Assembly: GCA_022566355.1 (NCBI GenBank)
Contig: JADFJB010000036.1
Location: 1-36,259 of the forward strand
Direction of reading: 5' to 3'
Length of the DNA: 36,259 nt
DNA from: a candidate division KSB1 bacterium
Lineage (GTDB): Bacteria; Zhuqueibacterota; JdFR-76; DREG01
The position numbers and the translations under genes are program-made. Shown here one piece after another: positions 17,626 through 32,151 of this stretch; positions within the stretch are counted from its first letter, which is position 1; every line of letters starts with the position of its first letter. Below the pieces are notes generated by a model. It made no database searches. It was not told where the DNA came from and saw nothing but the letters and a program-made list of their open reading frames with translations.

Positions 17626-19017
17626 TCAATTGCGATTATTGGACTTACTTGGTATTTCAATACCCATTTCGCGGAAATCACGGATCTTATTTCGTAAAGT
17701 ACGAACTGAAATTCCTAATTCTTCTGCCGTTTTTGTACGATTTCCCCTATTTTCTTCGAGAACTTGTAGAATCATTTTTTTCTCAATTTCGCCAAGATTT
17801 TTTATATTTCCATTCAAATTATTGTAATTTTGTGCGGTTTTGTAATCATAAGGCATTAAAAAATGATCAGGTTCAATTGTATCGCCTTTGCAAATAACAA
17901 CCGCCCTTTCGATCGCGTTTTCAAGTTCACGGACATTTCCCGGCCAATCGTAATTCATTAGCATTTTCATTGCTTCATCTGAGATCTTATCAACTTTCCT
18001 GCTGTTTTCTTCTGAGTAATTTTTTCTAAAATGCTCTGCTAAAAGTAGAATATCTTCCTTTCTTTCTTTTAGAGCTGGTAATATAATCGGAACTACATTG
18101 AGACGATAAAAAAGGTCCTCTCTAAATTCACCATTATCTATTAATTTCTTCAAGTCACAATTTGTTGTAGCAATAACACGGACATCTACTTCCATCGTCT
18201 CAGTGCCACCAACCTTCTCAAACTCCTTTTCTTGCAAAACCCTTAATAATTTAGCCTGTAAATTAAGATTCATTTCACTAATCTCATCGAGTAGTAAAGT
18301 ACCTCCGTCTGCAAGTTCAAATCTGCCTCTTGTCTGTTTGATTGCACCGGTAAAAGCACCTTTTTCATGGCCAAAGAGTTCACTTTCCACCAGGCCGTCA
18401 GGAATTGCAGCACAATTTGTTTTTATAAAGGAATTTTTCCTCCTTGGGCTATTGAAATGAATAGCTTTCGCGACTAATTCTTTTCCAGTACCGCTTGCAC
18501 CTTGAATTAGTATTGTGGCTTTGGAATCGGCAACCATTTGTATTACATCAAATACTTCCTTGATTTTTTGGCTCTTGCCAATTATGTTGTCAAAGCCTTC
18601 TAATTTGCCAAGCTGAGATTTTAAGAATTTGTTTTCTGATTGCAACTTATGATAATCGAAATATTTTTCGATAACTATTTCTATTTCATCAGCTGAGAAT
18701 GGTTTTGTTAGGTAATCGAAAGCTCCAATTTTCATTGCTTCCACTGCATTCTCAACTGTTCCATAAGCTGTAATTACAATAACGCCTGTATCTGGGTTGT
18801 TTTTTTTTGCTTTATTTAAAACAACTAATCCGTTGTCGTCTGGTAGTCTAAGATCGGTAATTACGAGGTCATAATTGTTTTCATTCAGTTTGTTTTTAGC
18901 AGATTGAACATCCTCTGCACTATCAAACTCAAAATGTTTTCGTCTCAAAATTTCCAATAGAAATTCATGCAACAGATGATCGTCGTCTACAACTAATATT
19001 TTTTTTCCTGGTATCAC
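17626..19017 (-). CDS. Sigma-54-dependent NtrC-family response regulator
   Basis: 463 aa from a GTG start (19017) with GGAGTGAT upstream. The receiver domain (6-120) has phospho-acceptor D55 (VITDLRLPD) and K105 (LTKPF). The AAA+ domain (about 142-385) has Walker A GASGTGKE 173-180, the sigma-54-contacting loop GAFTGA 220-225 and Walker B LLLDEI 241-246. A Fis-type helix-turn-helix is at the C-terminus (NRTKTAEELGISVRTLRNKI). It is a complete activator of sigma-54 promoters. It follows the histidine kinase by 12 nt and is surely its partner. Targets are not proven; the -24/-12 sites at 22266 and 28623 are candidates. Confidence 0.96.
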   Translation of the reverse strand: MIPGKKILVVDDDHLLHEFLLEILRRKHFEFDSAEDVQSAKNKLNENNYDLVITDLRLPDDNGLVVLNKAKKNNPDTGVIVITAYGTVENAVEAMKIGAFDYLTKPFSADEIEIVIEKYFDYHKLQSENKFLKSQLGKLEGFDNIIGKSQKIKEVFDVIQMVADSKATILIQGASGTGKELVAKAIHFNSPRRKNSFIKTNCAAIPDGLVESELFGHEKGAFTGAIKQTRGRFELADGGTLLLDEISEMNLNLQAKLLRVLQEKEFEKVGGTETMEVDVRVIATTNCDLKKLIDNGEFREDLFYRLNVVPIILPALKERKEDILLLAEHFRKNYSEENSRKVDKISDEAMKMLMNYDWPGNVRELENAIERAVVICKGDTIEPDHFLMPYDYKTAQNYNNLNGNIKNLGEIEKKMILQVLEENRGNRTKTAEELGISVRTLRNKIRDFREMGIEIPSKSNNRN

Positions 19018-19029
19018 AACATCACTCCA

Positions 19030-20262
19030 CTAGTTTACTAAAAACTCAAGGTATAACTTTGTACCCTTATGCTCATTACTATCGATCTTAATAACACCTT
19101 TATGTAAATCTACGATCTTTTTCACGATCGATAAACCCAGACCAGGTTTTCTTGATTTATCACCTGAGAAAGGATTATATATGTTTTCTTTCATATAATT
19201 CGGAATACCCCTGCCATTATCCACCAAAATGATATAAACTTTATCTTCAATTTTTGTTAATTCAATTTCAATCTCACCACTCTCTTCAAGTGATTCAACT
19301 GAGTTTCTAAATATATGAAGAAACATTTGTTGAAATAATTGAGGATCTGCCATCAATTCGACTGGGTAGTTAGGAAACTTCCGAACCAGGTTTATTTTTT
19401 TACCATCTTCATTGGTTTGAAATAAAACAGTCTCAATAATATCATTTAGCATCAATTTTAAGTTTAGCTTTCTTTTATTGGGAGTTATCGGGCGTGCAAG
19501 AAAAACCAAATTCCCGATAATCTTATCCATGTTCCCCACGGCTTCCAATATTTTTCTCACTAACCGTTGTCTAGGATCTCCATATCCTAAGTCTCTTTCA
19601 AGCAAAGCACCAAATCCGGCAATTGCACCCAATGGATTACGGATTTCATGCGCCACATCACCAGCCATTTCACCAAGTGCAGACAGTGTTTTTATCTGGT
19701 GAATTTCGTTCTCTAACTTACGAATCTCCGATAGATCTTCAAAAACTTCCACTACACCAATCTGATCTCCCTGGTCTGACTGTAAAAGGCACATACTGAA
19801 ATTAACGGGAAGCACATTCCCATCTGATCTGGTAATGTTCTTTTGCTGATGAACAATTTGCTTACCGGATTTAACAATCTTTTCTGGGGAAAACTCTTTA
19901 TTTTCAGGATCGAAAAAGCTGTGATAAGTTTTGTTAAGAACGCTAGATCTGGAGTAACCTGTCAATTCCTCTGCAGCGCAGTTAAACATTGTAATTTTGT
20001 TCTTAAGATCGATACAGATCACCCCTGCATTCATACTGGTCAATATATTATCAAGGTAATTTTTTAGTGAATCCGTCTCTTTAAGACTGGATTGCAGTTC
20101 TTTATTTTTCTCTTCTAACTCTAAATTCAATTTGGATACTTGTTCTTCGAGTTTCCCATAGGAAACTTGAAACTCATTAGTGGCATTGGTGAAATATTCT
20201 ACAGCCTGCGTTAGTGAGTATATTTGTTCTATTTTTTGATTTTGTAATCCGGCGGAACTCAT
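19030..20262 (-). CDS. Soluble PAS-domain sensor histidine kinase
   Basis: 410 aa. It has an N-terminal coiled coil (about 25-70) and a PAS domain (about 72-180: NILTSMNAGVICIDLKNKITMFNCAAEELTGYS). The HisKA has phospho-acceptor H205 (GEMAGDVAHEIRNPLGAI), and the HATPase has VDNGRGIP and KPGLGLSIVKKIV. No transmembrane helix is evident, so it senses a cytoplasmic signal or a partner protein, NtrB/AtoS-like in layout. Its ATG overlaps the stop of the FapA gene (ATGA) and the response regulator follows 12 nt later. This tight coupling suggests that FapA or the small upstream protein belongs to the same signalling unit. Confidence 0.95.
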   Translation of the reverse strand: MSSAGLQNQKIEQIYSLTQAVEYFTNATNEFQVSYGKLEEQVSKLNLELEEKNKELQSSLKETDSLKNYLDNILTSMNAGVICIDLKNKITMFNCAAEELTGYSRSSVLNKTYHSFFDPENKEFSPEKIVKSGKQIVHQQKNITRSDGNVLPVNFSMCLLQSDQGDQIGVVEVFEDLSEIRKLENEIHQIKTLSALGEMAGDVAHEIRNPLGAIAGFGALLERDLGYGDPRQRLVRKILEAVGNMDKIIGNLVFLARPITPNKRKLNLKLMLNDIIETVLFQTNEDGKKINLVRKFPNYPVELMADPQLFQQMFLHIFRNSVESLEESGEIEIELTKIEDKVYIILVDNGRGIPNYMKENIYNPFSGDKSRKPGLGLSIVKKIVDLHKGVIKIDSNEHKGTKLYLEFLVN

Positions 20263-21884
20263 CGTACGGTTTTTCTCTCGACTCCATTTGGTTTCATCAT
20301 AAATTTAACCGAGTTCAATTGGTTTGTTATTTCTTCAACATATTGATTCATAACAATCATAACGCCAGGATAAACTTTGTAGTTTGCCTGGATAAATGGC
20401 AATTCTTCGAAATCCGATCCCCCTGAGTTCGATTTCACCAAAGTGTTCTTTTCTTTTTCCAAAGCCCCAATTACGGTTTGAATTTGATCATATTCGTTTT
20501 TGAGTGCTTGCATTTCCGCAAGTTTTTGAGCATTCAAACCCTTTAAGCGTTGTTTAAGAACTGTGAGAAATGAAATATTATCTTTTATTTTGTTTAATTT
20601 CTTCGTTAAATCTTTGATTTTCTTACTTATTCTTTGGGCCTCCAACCATGCCTCAGTATCAATGGATAACCCCATTGCAATTCGAGTCTTAATATTTTTT
20701 GGGGTTCCGAGTTCGCGTGCGATGACTCCTCGCTCACTGTGAACTGCTCCACCAATAATTTGACCCTTGGGAATCTTTACGAATCCTTCAGCATCAATTT
20801 CACAATCCAAAACATATTTATTAAACTCTGCATCCCTTCCAACAGATATTTGCGCATGCTGAGCAAATTCAGCGGACAGATTATATTTTGCAGTTAAGTT
20901 TGCTTTATATTTCCCAAGTATCCCCCCTTTAATGACTATGTCACCCCCTTTAGATTTGATTGTAGCTCCCTCGACACTCCCATTGATTAAAATATTGCCA
21001 TCGGTTTCTACGGTAAAACCCGTTTTTACATCACCATTTATTATCACTTCACCATTGTAATGGATATCCCCTGATGTAAAATCAACATCATGTGACAAAA
21101 CATAGACACGCTCAATATTGATCAAACCGTCAGTTAAGTACAAGTGGCCGCTTATTTTTGAATAAAGGTCACAAGAATCCGGCGAAAAATAAGTATTTAA
21201 TCCACCAGGTAGTTTTAGTGCATTGCCATCCTTGCAAGGGATAGGTTCATTAAATACATTTAAGCCTGGTTTGCCAGCTTTAGCAGAAATTAGATGTGCC
21301 AAGTGTTGATCTTCTTCAACACATTTAATCTCATTTGATCTATGGTAATCTACTTTTCCATCTTCTTTTATTAGCGGTTTAGCACTTTTATCGATATCCA
21401 CCATATAAACAATTTGTGCATCTGTACCGTTTACCGGAGGCACCCCAGAAGAAATAATTTCATTAACAACAAGTTTCTTATTTTGAATGATCCTTTTGAT
21501 TTCATCAATATTTGTTGGCATTCGAATCTTCAACTTATCCAATTTGTAATAGATATCGTTTTCAGTAATTGTTAGATCATTATCATTCGGAAATCTTACT
21601 GTTAAGAAGCAATGTAGCCCGTCTTCTGGTACGTGAACATGGATGTATTTATCTTTAAGTTTGTTATATTTTTGAAAGATTGGTCCAACCCTAATTGGTT
21701 CCGTACTTTTCATCGACAGGACATGATCAATTTTTTTGATATCCGCGTTGATCACCCCGGATTTTATGAGTTCGCCTTTGATTTCATCGATGGTTGCTGT
21801 CCCCCTAAAATCGGAGTTCATACTTAAATAAACACCATCATTTTTGAACTCAAATTTCAATTGTTTGATATAAAGATTTGCCAT
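20259..21884 (-). CDS. FapA family (DUF342) polymerising beta-helix protein
   Basis: 541 aa. The N-terminal half is the FapA domain (DKLKIRMPTNIDEIKRIIQNKKLVVNEIISSGVPPVNGTDAQIVYMVD, then AHLISAKAGKPGLNVFNEPIP). A right-handed beta-helix of short repeats follows (about 245-385: GDIHYNGEVIINGDVKTGF, DGNILINGSVEGATI), resembling bactofilin turns. A long coiled coil (about 410-490) is next. DUF342 proteins are linked to polar flagellum assembly in Vibrio (FapA) and occur in many non-flagellated bacteria with unknown roles. No flagellar gene is in this window. It is the second gene of the operon, overlapping the kinase by 4 nt. A scaffold role feeding the kinase is inference. Confidence 0.88.
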   Translation of the reverse strand: MANLYIKQLKFEFKNDGVYLSMNSDFRGTATIDEIKGELIKSGVINADIKKIDHVLSMKSTEPIRVGPIFQKYNKLKDKYIHVHVPEDGLHCFLTVRFPNDNDLTITENDIYYKLDKLKIRMPTNIDEIKRIIQNKKLVVNEIISSGVPPVNGTDAQIVYMVDIDKSAKPLIKEDGKVDYHRSNEIKCVEEDQHLAHLISAKAGKPGLNVFNEPIPCKDGNALKLPGGLNTYFSPDSCDLYSKISGHLYLTDGLINIERVYVLSHDVDFTSGDIHYNGEVIINGDVKTGFTVETDGNILINGSVEGATIKSKGGDIVIKGGILGKYKANLTAKYNLSAEFAQHAQISVGRDAEFNKYVLDCEIDAEGFVKIPKGQIIGGAVHSERGVIARELGTPKNIKTRIAMGLSIDTEAWLEAQRISKKIKDLTKKLNKIKDNISFLTVLKQRLKGLNAQKLAEMQALKNEYDQIQTVIGALEKEKNTLVKSNSGGSDFEELPFIQANYKVYPGVMIVMNQYVEEITNQLNSVKFMMKPNGVERKTVR

Positions 21885-27095: not shown

Positions 27096-28355
27096 TTAGC
27101 CTTGATTTGAAACGGCAATGATTGAGCGCATCTGGTCTTTTAATTCTTCGATAGATATACTTTGGGTTAAATCGATCTCAAAAATTTGATAGCGGCCGTT
27201 TCTATCAGAGTAGAAGGCAACTCTCTTTCCATCAGGTGAATAACTTGGAGACAGATCTTTTGCACTATCGTTTGTTAATCTTTTTAAATTCTCCGTTCGT
27301 AAGTCAAGTTCATAGATATCATAGTTATTTGTTACTCGACTAAAAAATACAACCTTATTTCCATCTGGCGAATATTTTGGCGCTCCGAAGTCCATGTTAT
27401 GTGATGTAAGCCGAGATACACTACCCCCATCAATATTGGCATCGAATAATGAATAATTCACATCGCTATTGGCTGTAAATAGAAATCGATCTTTGTTTGA
27501 CTGAACACATGGAAAGCTATAATCATAATCTTGAAGCATAAGTGATTGAGTTTGATTTAATTTTATGTTATGACTGAATATCTTGCTTCGATAATTTCCT
27601 TGTATTTCTCTATCGGATACGAATAATATAGTATTGCCACTTTGAGTAGGAGCTGGATTCCAGTCATCCGCCGGATGTACAATAATTGGATTTTCCGTTT
27701 TATCATTCAAGTTATAAGAATAAATATCTCTTTTACTTCCTGATTCATTTTGCTGTCTTGTAAATAATATAGTGTTGTTTTCAGCAAAGACCGGGGATTC
27801 ATCATTCAGAGAATTTGTAATCAATTCAACAGCTTCTCCGGAATTGAGATCAACAATGTGTATATCCCAGTTTTGATTTTTGTTAGATTGCAAAACAATT
27901 CTTTTCCCGGATTTGTCATACATGGGATTAGCATTATCAAAATTTCCATAAGTTAATTGTTTAAGCAAGTATCTTAATCCTGTGGCTTCAGCAACCTTAT
28001 CTAACCATTTTTCAGTGTTTTCTGCAGATAACAAAATCAGAAATTCTTCATATGCTGCTGTTATGTTATTTCTATTAAAATTTAATTCTCCCTTGAAATA
28101 CCTGGCTTCTTGATAATTAGGGTTTATACCGAGGGCAGAATCTGCATAAGAGAGAGCCATCTCTTCATTCCCCCTTAAATAATATGACTGTGCTAATTCA
28201 AAATATGCTTCATAATTATCAGGATTATTGGATATCTCCTTATCCAATTTTATAAAGTTTTTGTCATCTATTCCATTATTTACTGTGGCGATTTCTTTGG
28301 ATCCGGTACATCCAAATAGTATTAATATTGACAAAAAGCAAAGCAACTTTTTCAT
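27096..28355 (-). CDS. Lipoprotein with TPR repeats and TolB-like beta-propeller
   Basis: 419 aa. The signal peptide has a lipobox (LILFGC-TG, C16), so a lipid-anchored exported protein is expected. Two or three TPR units follow (about 38-105: PDNYEAYFELAQSYYLRGNEEMALSYADSALGINPNYQEARYFKGELNF). The rest is a WD40-like/PD40 propeller in which units of the form P-x-x-SPDGKxxxFxSxRxGxxxIYxxDL recur (YSPDGNKVVFFSRVTNNYDIYELDL, YSPDGKRVAFYSDRNGRYQIFEIDL). Such proteins resemble TolB and act in the periplasm in envelope or binding roles. It is divergent from the sigma-54-controlled small ORFs. No partner (pal, tolA) is nearby. Confidence 0.85.
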   Translation of the reverse strand: MKKLLCFLSILILFGCTGSKEIATVNNGIDDKNFIKLDKEISNNPDNYEAYFELAQSYYLRGNEEMALSYADSALGINPNYQEARYFKGELNFNRNNITAAYEEFLILLSAENTEKWLDKVAEATGLRYLLKQLTYGNFDNANPMYDKSGKRIVLQSNKNQNWDIHIVDLNSGEAVELITNSLNDESPVFAENNTILFTRQQNESGSKRDIYSYNLNDKTENPIIVHPADDWNPAPTQSGNTILFVSDREIQGNYRSKIFSHNIKLNQTQSLMLQDYDYSFPCVQSNKDRFLFTANSDVNYSLFDANIDGGSVSRLTSHNMDFGAPKYSPDGNKVVFFSRVTNNYDIYELDLRTENLKRLTNDSAKDLSPSYSPDGKRVAFYSDRNGRYQIFEIDLTQSISIEELKDQMRSIIAVSNQG

Positions 28356-28622: not shown

Positions 28623-28638
28623 TGGCACATTATTTGCA
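28623..28638 (+). promoter_or_regulatory. Perfect sigma-54 (-24/-12) promoter
   Basis: TGGCACATTATTTGCA: TGGCAC, 5 bp, TTGCA, identical to the RpoN consensus. The predicted start is 28648-28650, only about 10 nt before the ATG of the 77-aa ORF, with GAGAG in between as ribosome-binding site. It is the best regulatory match in the window. Confidence 0.85.
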
Positions 28639-28658
28639 CATAATATTTTGAGAGATTT

Positions 28659-28892
28659 ATGAAAAAGCAAAACCATTCAGATAAATATATTTTGGAACCA
28701 GAATTGAAAAAAGATGAAATCAAAAATTCACAAGATAATCAAGACAAGAATAGAATTGAGATTGATACACAAGAAATAGATGAAGGTAAAGAAGAGCTAG
28801 AATTCAGCGCAAAGACAACTAATGCCATAGCCCCGGATAAAGTCAATTATCGCTCTTATAAAGTAAGCAAACGTATGAGTCAAAGAGAATAG
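28659..28892 (+). CDS. Small charged protein under sigma-54 control
   Basis: 77 aa, no family recognised. It is almost entirely polar: 17 Asp/Glu and 16 Lys/Arg by count, no cysteine and no hydrophobic segment, so it is probably disordered or a short coiled coil. An acidic centre (IEIDTQEIDEGKEELEF) is followed by a basic tail (YRSYKVSKRMSQRE). The start is fixed by the short leader behind the -24/-12 promoter and by GAGAG. A second tiny ORF follows 8 nt later with its own ribosome-binding site. Sigma-54 control suggests synthesis on demand, perhaps as a stress or adaptor protein; the role is unknown. Confidence 0.75.
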   Translation: MKKQNHSDKYILEPELKKDEIKNSQDNQDKNRIEIDTQEIDEGKEELEFSAKTTNAIAPDKVNYRSYKVSKRMSQRE

Positions 28893-28900
28893 AGGTAATT

Positions 28901-29032
28901 ATGGATAATTTAATTCTAAAATTTCGATTATTCTACTTTCGAACAAGTTTTAGGAAATTGAGAAAACGGCTTATAGCTCACTTAAGTAAAAGCCAAATAA
29001 AAAGTTCCTCCATAAAATCACCATCTTTTTAG
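28901..29032 (+). CDS. Tiny strongly basic protein, second gene of sigma-54 unit
   Basis: 43 aa from the ATG at 28901, seven bases behind AGAGG, ending at a TAG at 29032. By count it has 11 Lys/Arg against one Asp. The N-terminal half alternates hydrophobic and basic residues (LILKFRLFYFRTSFRKLRKR), which can form an amphipathic helix. It could bind membrane, nucleic acid or the acidic part of its 77-aa neighbour. No family is recognised. Confidence rests on the ribosome-binding site and the 8-nt gap to the upstream ORF; it may be missed by gene callers because of length. Confidence 0.55.
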   Translation: MDNLILKFRLFYFRTSFRKLRKRLIAHLSKSQIKSSSIKSPSF

Positions 29033-29056: not shown

Positions 29057-29860
29057 CTATTTAACTGACTCAAGTTGAGTCAAATTTACTAATTGATATT
29101 TTGTTCGATACTTTCTGTCAATCAACCTTCCCAATTTTTGCGCTTCTTCATTTGAATCAAATTTCCCCACACAAACGACATAGTATTTTTTATTGCTAAC
29201 GAATTTTATATAAATATCAGCGTCATAACCTTTATTTACTAAAAATTGTTTTTGGATACGAGCATTGTTGAGGGTAGAGAAAGCATCGGTTTGTACTGAA
29301 TAAATAGCTTTGCGATTACTTTTTTTGTCCTCAGTTGAATTAGACTTATCATCATTTAATGTTAATTGGATAGTTTTATTTAGCTTTGAATGCGGGTACT
29401 TTTTCTGGAATTTCATTATAGTAGATTTAGCTGAATCTGCAGACCCTATTGCCAGCCAGCATCTTGAAACGTAATACAAACCACGTTCCCCATAGTCAGT
29501 CTTTGAATACTTTCTATCCAAAAACAAAAAAGTTTCTCGGGCTGAGTTATATAACCCTGTTGCAAATTTAAATAGCGCTATTCGCTCAATTATAGCTGGA
29601 ATTTCCTTAGAATTAGGATTTTGTTGGACTATTTTTTTGAAACGGTCAACCGCATTTCCTCCTTCTTTATCAAAAAGAGCTTCGATGAATCTCATACCAA
29701 CGTCGGAAGAGGTATCCAAATTCTTTTGATTCAGCCTGTTTTCCAATTCCTCAATTTCTTTTTCTTCATATAACCGCAACTCGGATTGTGCGAACAATTT
29801 CATATTAAAGGAGGATAATAAAAGAAATACACTAATTAATGTTAATAATTTCAATCTCAA
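29057..29860 (-). CDS. Exported TPR- and SPOR-domain protein
   Basis: About 267 aa. A TTG at 29860 with GAGAG upstream is the likely start, leading straight into a signal peptide (LRLKLLTLISVFLLLSSFNMKLFAQ, cleavage near FAQ-SE). A TTG at 29890 is an alternative without a ribosome-binding site. The central part is TPR-like, YbgF/BamD style (DRFKKIVQQNPNSKEIPAIIERIALFKFATGLYNSARETFLFLDRKYSKTDYGERGLYYVSRCWLAIG). The last 75 residues form a SPOR domain (YSVQTDAFSTLNNARIQKQFLVNKGYDADIYI...YYVVCVGKFDSNEEAQKLGRLI). SPOR domains bind denuded peptidoglycan strands at the septum, so a periplasmic cell-wall or division role is likely. Confidence 0.85.
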   Translation of the reverse strand: MRLKLLTLISVFLLLSSFNMKLFAQSELRLYEEKEIEELENRLNQKNLDTSSDVGMRFIEALFDKEGGNAVDRFKKIVQQNPNSKEIPAIIERIALFKFATGLYNSARETFLFLDRKYSKTDYGERGLYYVSRCWLAIGSADSAKSTIMKFQKKYPHSKLNKTIQLTLNDDKSNSTEDKKSNRKAIYSVQTDAFSTLNNARIQKQFLVNKGYDADIYIKFVSNKKYYVVCVGKFDSNEEAQKLGRLIDRKYRTKYQLVNLTQLESVK

Positions 29861-29930
29861 AATACTTCTCTCAAATAATAATCTTCCCAATTAAATTAAT
29901 TAAACTTGATCTATTCATAAACCTTATCAC

Positions 29931-31531: not shown

Positions 31532-31864
31532 CTAATCATTTTCAAGCCATTGTAAAATGACGGTTTTTAATCCAGGAATATCATTTTGAACGATTTCCCA
31601 AATTTGTTCTAAGTCTAAACCCAAGTAATTATGAACCAAAACATTTCGGAAAGCGGAAAGTTCACTGCCAATTTATTTCAGGAACGTGTCTTTCAAAAAA
31701 TCTGAAAGTTTTTGAGTTGCCTCTGACATAGTTTTAAGGTTTCGAATAACTGCATCCTGAATTGTATGGGACTTCAAAAACACTTTCTTTCCACCGGTAG
31801 TGTTTTCTTCTATTCGGCTTATGCTTTAATGAATATGATTAATATAAAGAAAATCAGATTTCAT
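31532..31864 (-). pseudogene. Decayed HEPN (DUF86) toxin gene
   Basis: From an ATG at 31864 the frame reads MKSDFLYINHIH-stop-SISRIEENTTGG...IQDAVIRNLKTMSEATQKLSDFLKD, then is out of register for about 10 codons (the alternative frame reads HVPEINWQ). It resumes with SAFRNVLVHNYLGLDLEQIWEIVQNDIPGLK to a TAG at 31532. The HEPN ribonuclease motif R-x4-H (RNVLVH) followed by NY is preserved in sequence. Two in-frame stops interrupt translation: codon 13, and the TAA just before the HEPN motif. Total length (111 codons) equals intact DUF86 proteins. It overlaps the MNT gene by ATGA, the normal arrangement of MNT-HEPN modules. Confidence 0.82.
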
Positions 31865-32151
31865 AAGAGTATTGCTTCATGCAAGACATTATCTTTACAA
31901 AAAGGATTTAGAGCTCTTTCAGTTACTATTTCAACATGTTTGCCGAGGAGTTCTTCCAAATCCAAGATAAGGCCAGCAGGAAACCAAGGGCTGGTTTTTG
32001 ATTCTGTGTCAATCAAAAAATCAATATCACTACCTGGTCTAGATTCGCCTCTAACGATTGATCCAAAAATTCGGATATTAATCGCTCCGTGTTTTGACGC
32101 GATATTTAGAATTTCTTCTTTCTTAATTCTAATCTGATTGAGTTCATCCAT
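31861..32151 (-). CDS. MNT-type minimal nucleotidyltransferase (antitoxin)
   Basis: 96 aa. The nucleotidyltransferase signature is G30-S31 followed by D42-x-D44 (FGSIVRGESRPGSDIDFLID), typical of MNT proteins. In known MNT-HEPN toxin-antitoxin systems the MNT protein adds AMP units to a tyrosine beside the HEPN active site and silences the ribonuclease. The reading frame is intact although the partner toxin gene immediately downstream (4-nt overlap) is broken. It therefore survives as a solitary antitoxin. The pair sits between aroKB and aroQ. Confidence 0.88.
   Translation of the reverse strand: MDELNQIRIKKEEILNIASKHGAINIRIFGSIVRGESRPGSDIDFLIDTESKTSPWFPAGLILDLEELLGKHVEIVTERALNPFCKDNVLHEAILL

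Follow-up and report, generated by a model that had tools for sequence, protein, structure and literature searches.

A predicted sigma-54 operon for two small genes

Does a sigma-54 promoter core with an exact match to its consensus drive an operon of two very small genes in a candidate division KSB1 bacterium, and what might such microproteins do? The locus lies on contig JADFJB010000036.1 (assembly GCA_022566355.1), and we refer to the whole 36,259-nucleotide stretch of DNA analysed as the window. The -24/-12 element, TGGCAC-ATTAT-TTGCA (TGGCACATTATTTGCA), occupies positions 28623..28638 of the forward strand, matches 11/11 core bases of TGGCAC-N5-TTGCA and is the sole exact match within the window, where the chance expectation for the exact 11-base core is ~0.02 (4^-11, two strands of 36 kb). 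The original prediction had read it as an exact match to the RpoN -24/-12 consensus, and both the 11 bases without mismatch and the coordinates proved right. The extended sigma-54 consensus has a Y before TGG and a G after CAC, and over this longer stretch the element is imperfect, reading gTGGCACa. The transcription start, inferred from the element at 12 nt past the -12 C, is predicted at 28649 (forward strand); the promoter had been placed about 10 nt before the first open-reading frame (ORF1), a distance that stands for this predicted start (~28649) and fails for the element, whose last base is 20 nt from the ATG. The leaders implied by the predicted start are 10-23 nt long in the six ORF1-bearing genomes of the order. 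A sigma-70 promoter was considered as a better fit and rejected, as the scan returned 7 candidates vs. 3.7 expected (sd 1.9), none of which ends directly 5' of ORF1.

The genome carries the machinery to read such a promoter: rpoN, whose absence would have told against the prediction, was found in 17/17 genomes tested (this genome, G000, and 16 others; PF04552, E 9.2e-60), and G000 encodes 22 sigma-54 activator domains (PF00158), one of them within the window at 17626-19017. One relative (G001) has two rpoN homologues (G001:C502 and G001:C31), the other genomes tested showing one. Genome-wide, the pattern TGGCAYN5TTGCW matched 18 sites vs. 3 when reversed as a control, which shows an enrichment of real sigma-54 sites. 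Several of the 18 precede classical targets (glnA, Hsp20, response regulators and fliM), so that in this organism the pattern identifies genuine sigma-54 promoters. Across the order, gene identities read from sequence place sigma-54 sites upstream of fliM in G000 and G002, of a putative flagellar rod-type gene in G002, and of putative PilZ-like and STAS-domain genes.

Conservation of the promoter and both frames at one locus

The comparison set comprised seven genomes of the order, this genome and six relatives (G001-G006). A single-sequence search with ORF1 returned no relative above chance because only 16 of its residues are conserved; flanking-gene synteny solved this, and the relatives' loci were located through the flanking SPOR and TPR/PD40 genes. 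The promoter-ORF arrangement adjoins the SPOR gene in 6/6 relatives, and over all seven genomes the element is present in 7/7, ORF2 in 7/7 and ORF1 in 6/7. The element is kept in the same position beside the SPOR gene as GG-N10-GC ending in TTGCA: GGGCATAATTATTGCA (G001), CGGTATAATAATTGCA (G002), AGGCACAATATTTGCA (G003), TGGCATAGCATTTGCA (G004), TGGTACTATTATTGCA (G005) and TGGTATTATTATTGCA (G006). An element-like site arises in 10-36 of 20,000 dinucleotide shuffles per ~260-nt region in the seven genomes.

Substitutions between relatives follow the annotated reading frames. Pairwise differences per codon position 1/2/3 were 0.58/0.42/0.67 in ORF2 (residues 1-31) and 0.48/0.22/0.60 in the ORF1 C-terminus, position 3 being the most variable in both, and the mean BLOSUM62 score was 1.57 in frame vs. 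-0.76/-0.41 shifted for ORF2 and 3.12 vs. 0.29/0.32 for the ORF1 C-terminus. Conservation is limited to the annotated frame in both ORFs, with 0 stops in frame 0 and 22 and 7 (ORF2) or 5 and 4 (ORF1) in the shifted frames. Judged by these substitution patterns, both frames are coding, and the possibility that the frames would not be conserved among relatives was checked and found not to apply within the order.

Translation signals are conserved alongside. A Shine-Dalgarno-like GAGAG lies before ORF1 (28650..28654, forward strand), where 6/6 ORF1-bearing genomes have an SD-like purine run, and a Shine-Dalgarno GAGGT precedes ORF2 (28892..28896, forward strand), as an SD does in 7/7 genomes. The latter overlaps the ORF1 stop, which bears out the claim that ORF2 follows ORF1 by 8 nt with its own ribosome-binding site; across the order the gap is 8-20 nt. 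A search of the unit against Rfam found no family, and no terminator-like site was found at it.

The switch and both proteins recur at one chromosomal spot in nearly all relatives and are therefore real genes. We regard it as nearly certain at the sequence level that they form a predicted bicistronic operon under sigma-54 encoding two microproteins, and the prediction of a dedicated RpoN unit for two such proteins is upheld by the conservation of promoter, both SDs and both frames at a single locus. That the core is a chance consensus match in front of chance ORFs, short frames being common in AT-rich intergenic DNA, has a negligible probability, as every element is conserved in diverged relatives and this reading is refuted at the sequence level.

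ORF1 and ORF2 are single copy per genome in profile searches of the order, and neither protein is found in the 75 remaining genomes of the phylum, among them flagellated families that are without the unit. Weak profile matches in G039, G056, G016, G007, G067, G046, G080, G022 and G058 were rejected as pieces of other reading frames that have neither promoter nor partner beside them. No credible ORF2 was found in ~300 further genomes outside the phylum; a profile match in G294 falls within a frame of 813 aa, judged from the match row alone. As far as searched, the predicted operon is vertically inherited and order-specific. Titles and abstracts in the literature on small proteins and RpoN suggested no such operon, and a literature search for KSB1 with sigma-54 found none.

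In G001, promoter and ORF2 are kept and ORF1 is missing; the genome is 77% complete, but a single contig carries the locus intact. The two proteins are therefore not strictly dependent on each other. An SD-like AAGAGGA remains there without a start codon where ORF1 is missing (L064, 539-769).

Two microproteins outside known families

ORF1 (28659..28892, forward strand) encodes a 77-aa, charged and mostly disordered microprotein, and five other genomes have an orthologue of it at this locus. Its length varies from 40 to 102 aa across orthologues, which share conserved residues only at the start and in the C-terminal 16-20. The C-terminal motif, KVNYRSYKVSKRMSQR (28839..28886, forward strand), has the family form Y[RK]xYx[LV]x[RK]R[ML]xxR, in which Y64, Y67, R72 and R76 are invariant, and the ORF1 profile matches (5e-10 to 2e-9) fall, within the order, only at this locus. 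AlphaFold2, given a four-row alignment, predicted no secondary structure (mean pLDDT 66), and confidence rises only at the motif, with a block of 87 at residues 61-70. The pair had been described as complementary acidic and basic micro-proteins; we dropped this partner idea because the computed pI of ORF1 spans 5.7-10.2 across orthologues, and the sole conserved part is the basic C-terminal motif.

ORF2 (28901..29032, forward strand) encodes a strongly basic 43-aa microprotein with orthologues at the same locus in 7/7 genomes of the order (profile E 1e-19 to 6e-15), which share the pattern M..L.LKLRLL.FR..FKK.RKR, a length of 34-44 aa and a pI of 10.2-12.0 (7/7). The counts given earlier for its residues, 11 Lys/Arg and one Asp, are right. 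AlphaFold2 predicts one helix over residues 2-39, but at 100 degrees the ORF2 hydrophobic moment does not exceed that of shuffles and the periodicity peaks at 155-160 degrees in 7/7 genomes, so that the moment lends no support to an amphipathic membrane helix of the classic kind. ORF2 resembles SpoVM-like cationic membrane-surface peptides in being stand-alone, very short, basic plus hydrophobic and predicted helical; it differs in that its alpha-helical amphipathicity does not exceed shuffled sequence and in that the bacteria are unrelated and have no sporulation context.

Neither protein matched Pfam, NCBIfam, PHROGs or PADLOC, and matches to PDB sequences were only insignificant; the six ORF1 orthologues searched against Pfam and NCBIfam gave only unrelated weak matches. 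The statement that neither protein belongs to a known family is confirmed in that no family library tested recognises either.

Gene neighbourhood and candidate activator

The unit is flanked by two genes on the reverse strand that lie outside it: a divergent TPR/PD40 lipoprotein-like gene (27096..28355; Pfam PD40 2.9e-31) and a convergent TPR/SPOR-domain gene (29057..29890; Pfam SPOR 1.1e-8), on which the unit converges with 24 nt between the stop codons in the window. The PD40 gene adjoins the unit in G001, G002 and G004-G006 and is on a different contig in G003. The relatives' gene order is lapA, lapB, SPOR, the unit (on the opposite strand), PD40, carA and carB, followed, where contigs reach, by FapA, a kinase and an NtrC-type regulator after carB; the G002 block is without carAB. 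The lapA and lapB homologues (LPS assembly) then SPOR are seen, for example, in L215 (7862-10198) and L219 (3460-5835), and the window has a NudC-like gene where relatives have lapA-lapB beside SPOR. Elsewhere in the window, an MNT-like nucleotidyltransferase on the reverse strand (31532-32151; PADLOC PDC-S09 5.8e-33) lies beside a HEPN-like frame that an in-frame stop interrupts (FLK*IGSEL); the two may be what is left of a HEPN/MNT pair. Adjacency of the unit to its neighbouring genes may be mere synteny.

About 10 kb away on the reverse strand, at 17626..21884, Pfam matches define a FapA (DUF342), PAS histidine kinase and NtrC-type sigma-54 activator operon. In G002 and G003, too, the kinase-regulator pair is linked to the PD40 gene, almost adjoining it in G002 and with FapA also present in G003; the regulator is 65-66% identical in these two genomes. 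The FapA-linked regulator is the nearest candidate activator of the unit. It is only a lead, because the genome holds 22 activators and the unit has no recognisable enhancer site: we found no inverted repeat above shuffle level, as an upstream activator site might form, in the 200-220 nt 5' of the seven promoters, and no motif common to these regions. The unit is like NtrC-activated sigma-54 operons in its -24/-12 element, in GG/GC cores at the canonical 10-nt spacing, in its short leader and in a genome with rpoN and many activators, and unlike them in encoding two microproteins without known family and in having no recognisable enhancer site.

Possible function and alternatives

Transcribed by sigma-54 RNA polymerase, the operon would stay silent as long as no NtrC-family activator has been turned on. 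An enhancer-binding activator, plausibly the FapA-linked kinase/regulator, would turn the unit on, and ORF1 and ORF2 would be made together through coupled translation. ORF1 could then be a flexible tether that docks, through its C-terminal Tyr/Arg motif, on a single fixed partner, the N-terminal part being a mere spacer (the protein varies over 40-102 aa, with no conserved residues in this part), and ORF2 could be a polycationic peptide that sits on a polyanion, be it the membrane surface or a different one. Together they might adjust an envelope- or motility-related machine for as long as the sigma-54 regulon is on.

These layers deserve different degrees of belief. An envelope or motility context shared by the unit is somewhat probable: we counted towards it the sigma-54 sites at fliM, rod-type and PilZ-like genes, FliM in 7/7 genomes and the lapA-lapB-SPOR adjacency in relatives, and sigma-54 is generally linked to the bacterial exterior in a published survey (PMC3162934). 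To the composite reading, in which an activator-dependent, order-specific sigma-54 operon supplies a pair of accessory microproteins that probably act at the cell envelope or motility machinery, we give an even chance, molecular detail left aside. The detailed roles, with ORF1 as a tether carrying a docking motif and ORF2 as a polycationic surface peptide, are speculative and rather doubtful. A tentative idea, for which we would not give even chances, is that the two new families form an order-specific microprotein switch, co-expressed under sigma-54, that reprograms one conserved envelope or motility complex; if true, this would be a sigma-54 regulon with microprotein effectors instead of enzymes or structural subunits.

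A narrower placing of the unit within the flagellar sigma-54 cascade, as small chaperone-, anchor- or anti-sigma-like proteins switched by the FapA-linked kinase-regulator as a FleSR/FlgSR-type pair, is possible and on balance rather unlikely. It draws on fliM and another flagellar gene with sigma-54 sites in the order, on FliM being found even in the 1.4-Mb G003 as in the other genomes of the set, and on the linkage of the kinase/regulator pair to the locus in three genomes. ORF1 also shares with FlgM-type anti-sigma and small sigma-54-class flagellar proteins its small size, its largely disordered chain and conservation confined to the C-terminus, and it occurs in genomes where flagellar genes have sigma-54 sites. 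However, flagellated genomes of other families in the phylum are without the unit, which itself lies outside any flagellar gene cluster, and with 22 candidate activators in the genome the linked pair is one of many. ORF1 has no Pfam or NCBIfam match to FlgM or another flagellar family, its motif differs from FlgM, and the neighbourhoods read show no link to fliA or flagellin genes.

Could the pair instead bind RNA or ribosomes under stress or nitrogen limitation, through basic ORF2 and the basic ORF1 tail? Both conserved segments are Arg/Lys-rich with aromatic residues, and several Hsp20 genes and glnA have sigma-54 sites in these genomes. Against this unlikely reading, no ribosomal or RNA-binding family was matched, and a peptide that only binds RNA would not usually contain a hydrophobic core such as the L.LKLRLL of ORF2.

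Two small adjacent genes, probably translated together and one of them strongly basic, also recall type II toxin-antitoxin modules, with ORF2 as a toxic cationic peptide and ORF1 as its neutraliser. We consider this very unlikely: the unit is single copy, syntenic and vertically inherited at one locus, G001 keeps ORF2 and the promoter while dispensing with ORF1, ORF1 is not consistently acidic, PADLOC, Pfam and NCBIfam recognise no toxin or antitoxin family, and an activator-dependent promoter is atypical of such modules. Less likely still is that the transcript works as an RNA antisense to the 3' end of the SPOR gene and that the frames are incidental; convergence on the SPOR stop, 24 nt apart and with no terminator-like site found, would allow it, but the strong codon-level constraint on both frames, the conserved SD sites and the lack of an Rfam family argue otherwise.

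ORF1 and ORF2 represent two new families, which as far as searched occur in a single order of an uncultured phylum. Small proteins regularly go unnoticed in metagenome-derived genomes, and here a regulatory element led to two conserved microproteins absent from all family libraries tested. Microproteins would join the targets of sigma-54, with a testable regulator class. By its sequence the unit consists of genes of candidate division KSB1, a little-known uncultured lineage, awaiting function.

Further predicted sigma-54 promoters in the order

Hsp20-like genes repeatedly have exact sigma-54 sites in the order (L011, L140, L147, L152 and L166), which suggests that small chaperones are under sigma-54 control there. 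Two near-identical sigma-54 promoter regions lie ~2 kb apart on one contig of this genome (L017 and L018, G000:C162), each preceding a gene that starts MNRL.RLI (lipoprotein-like in L018), apparently as tandem copies.
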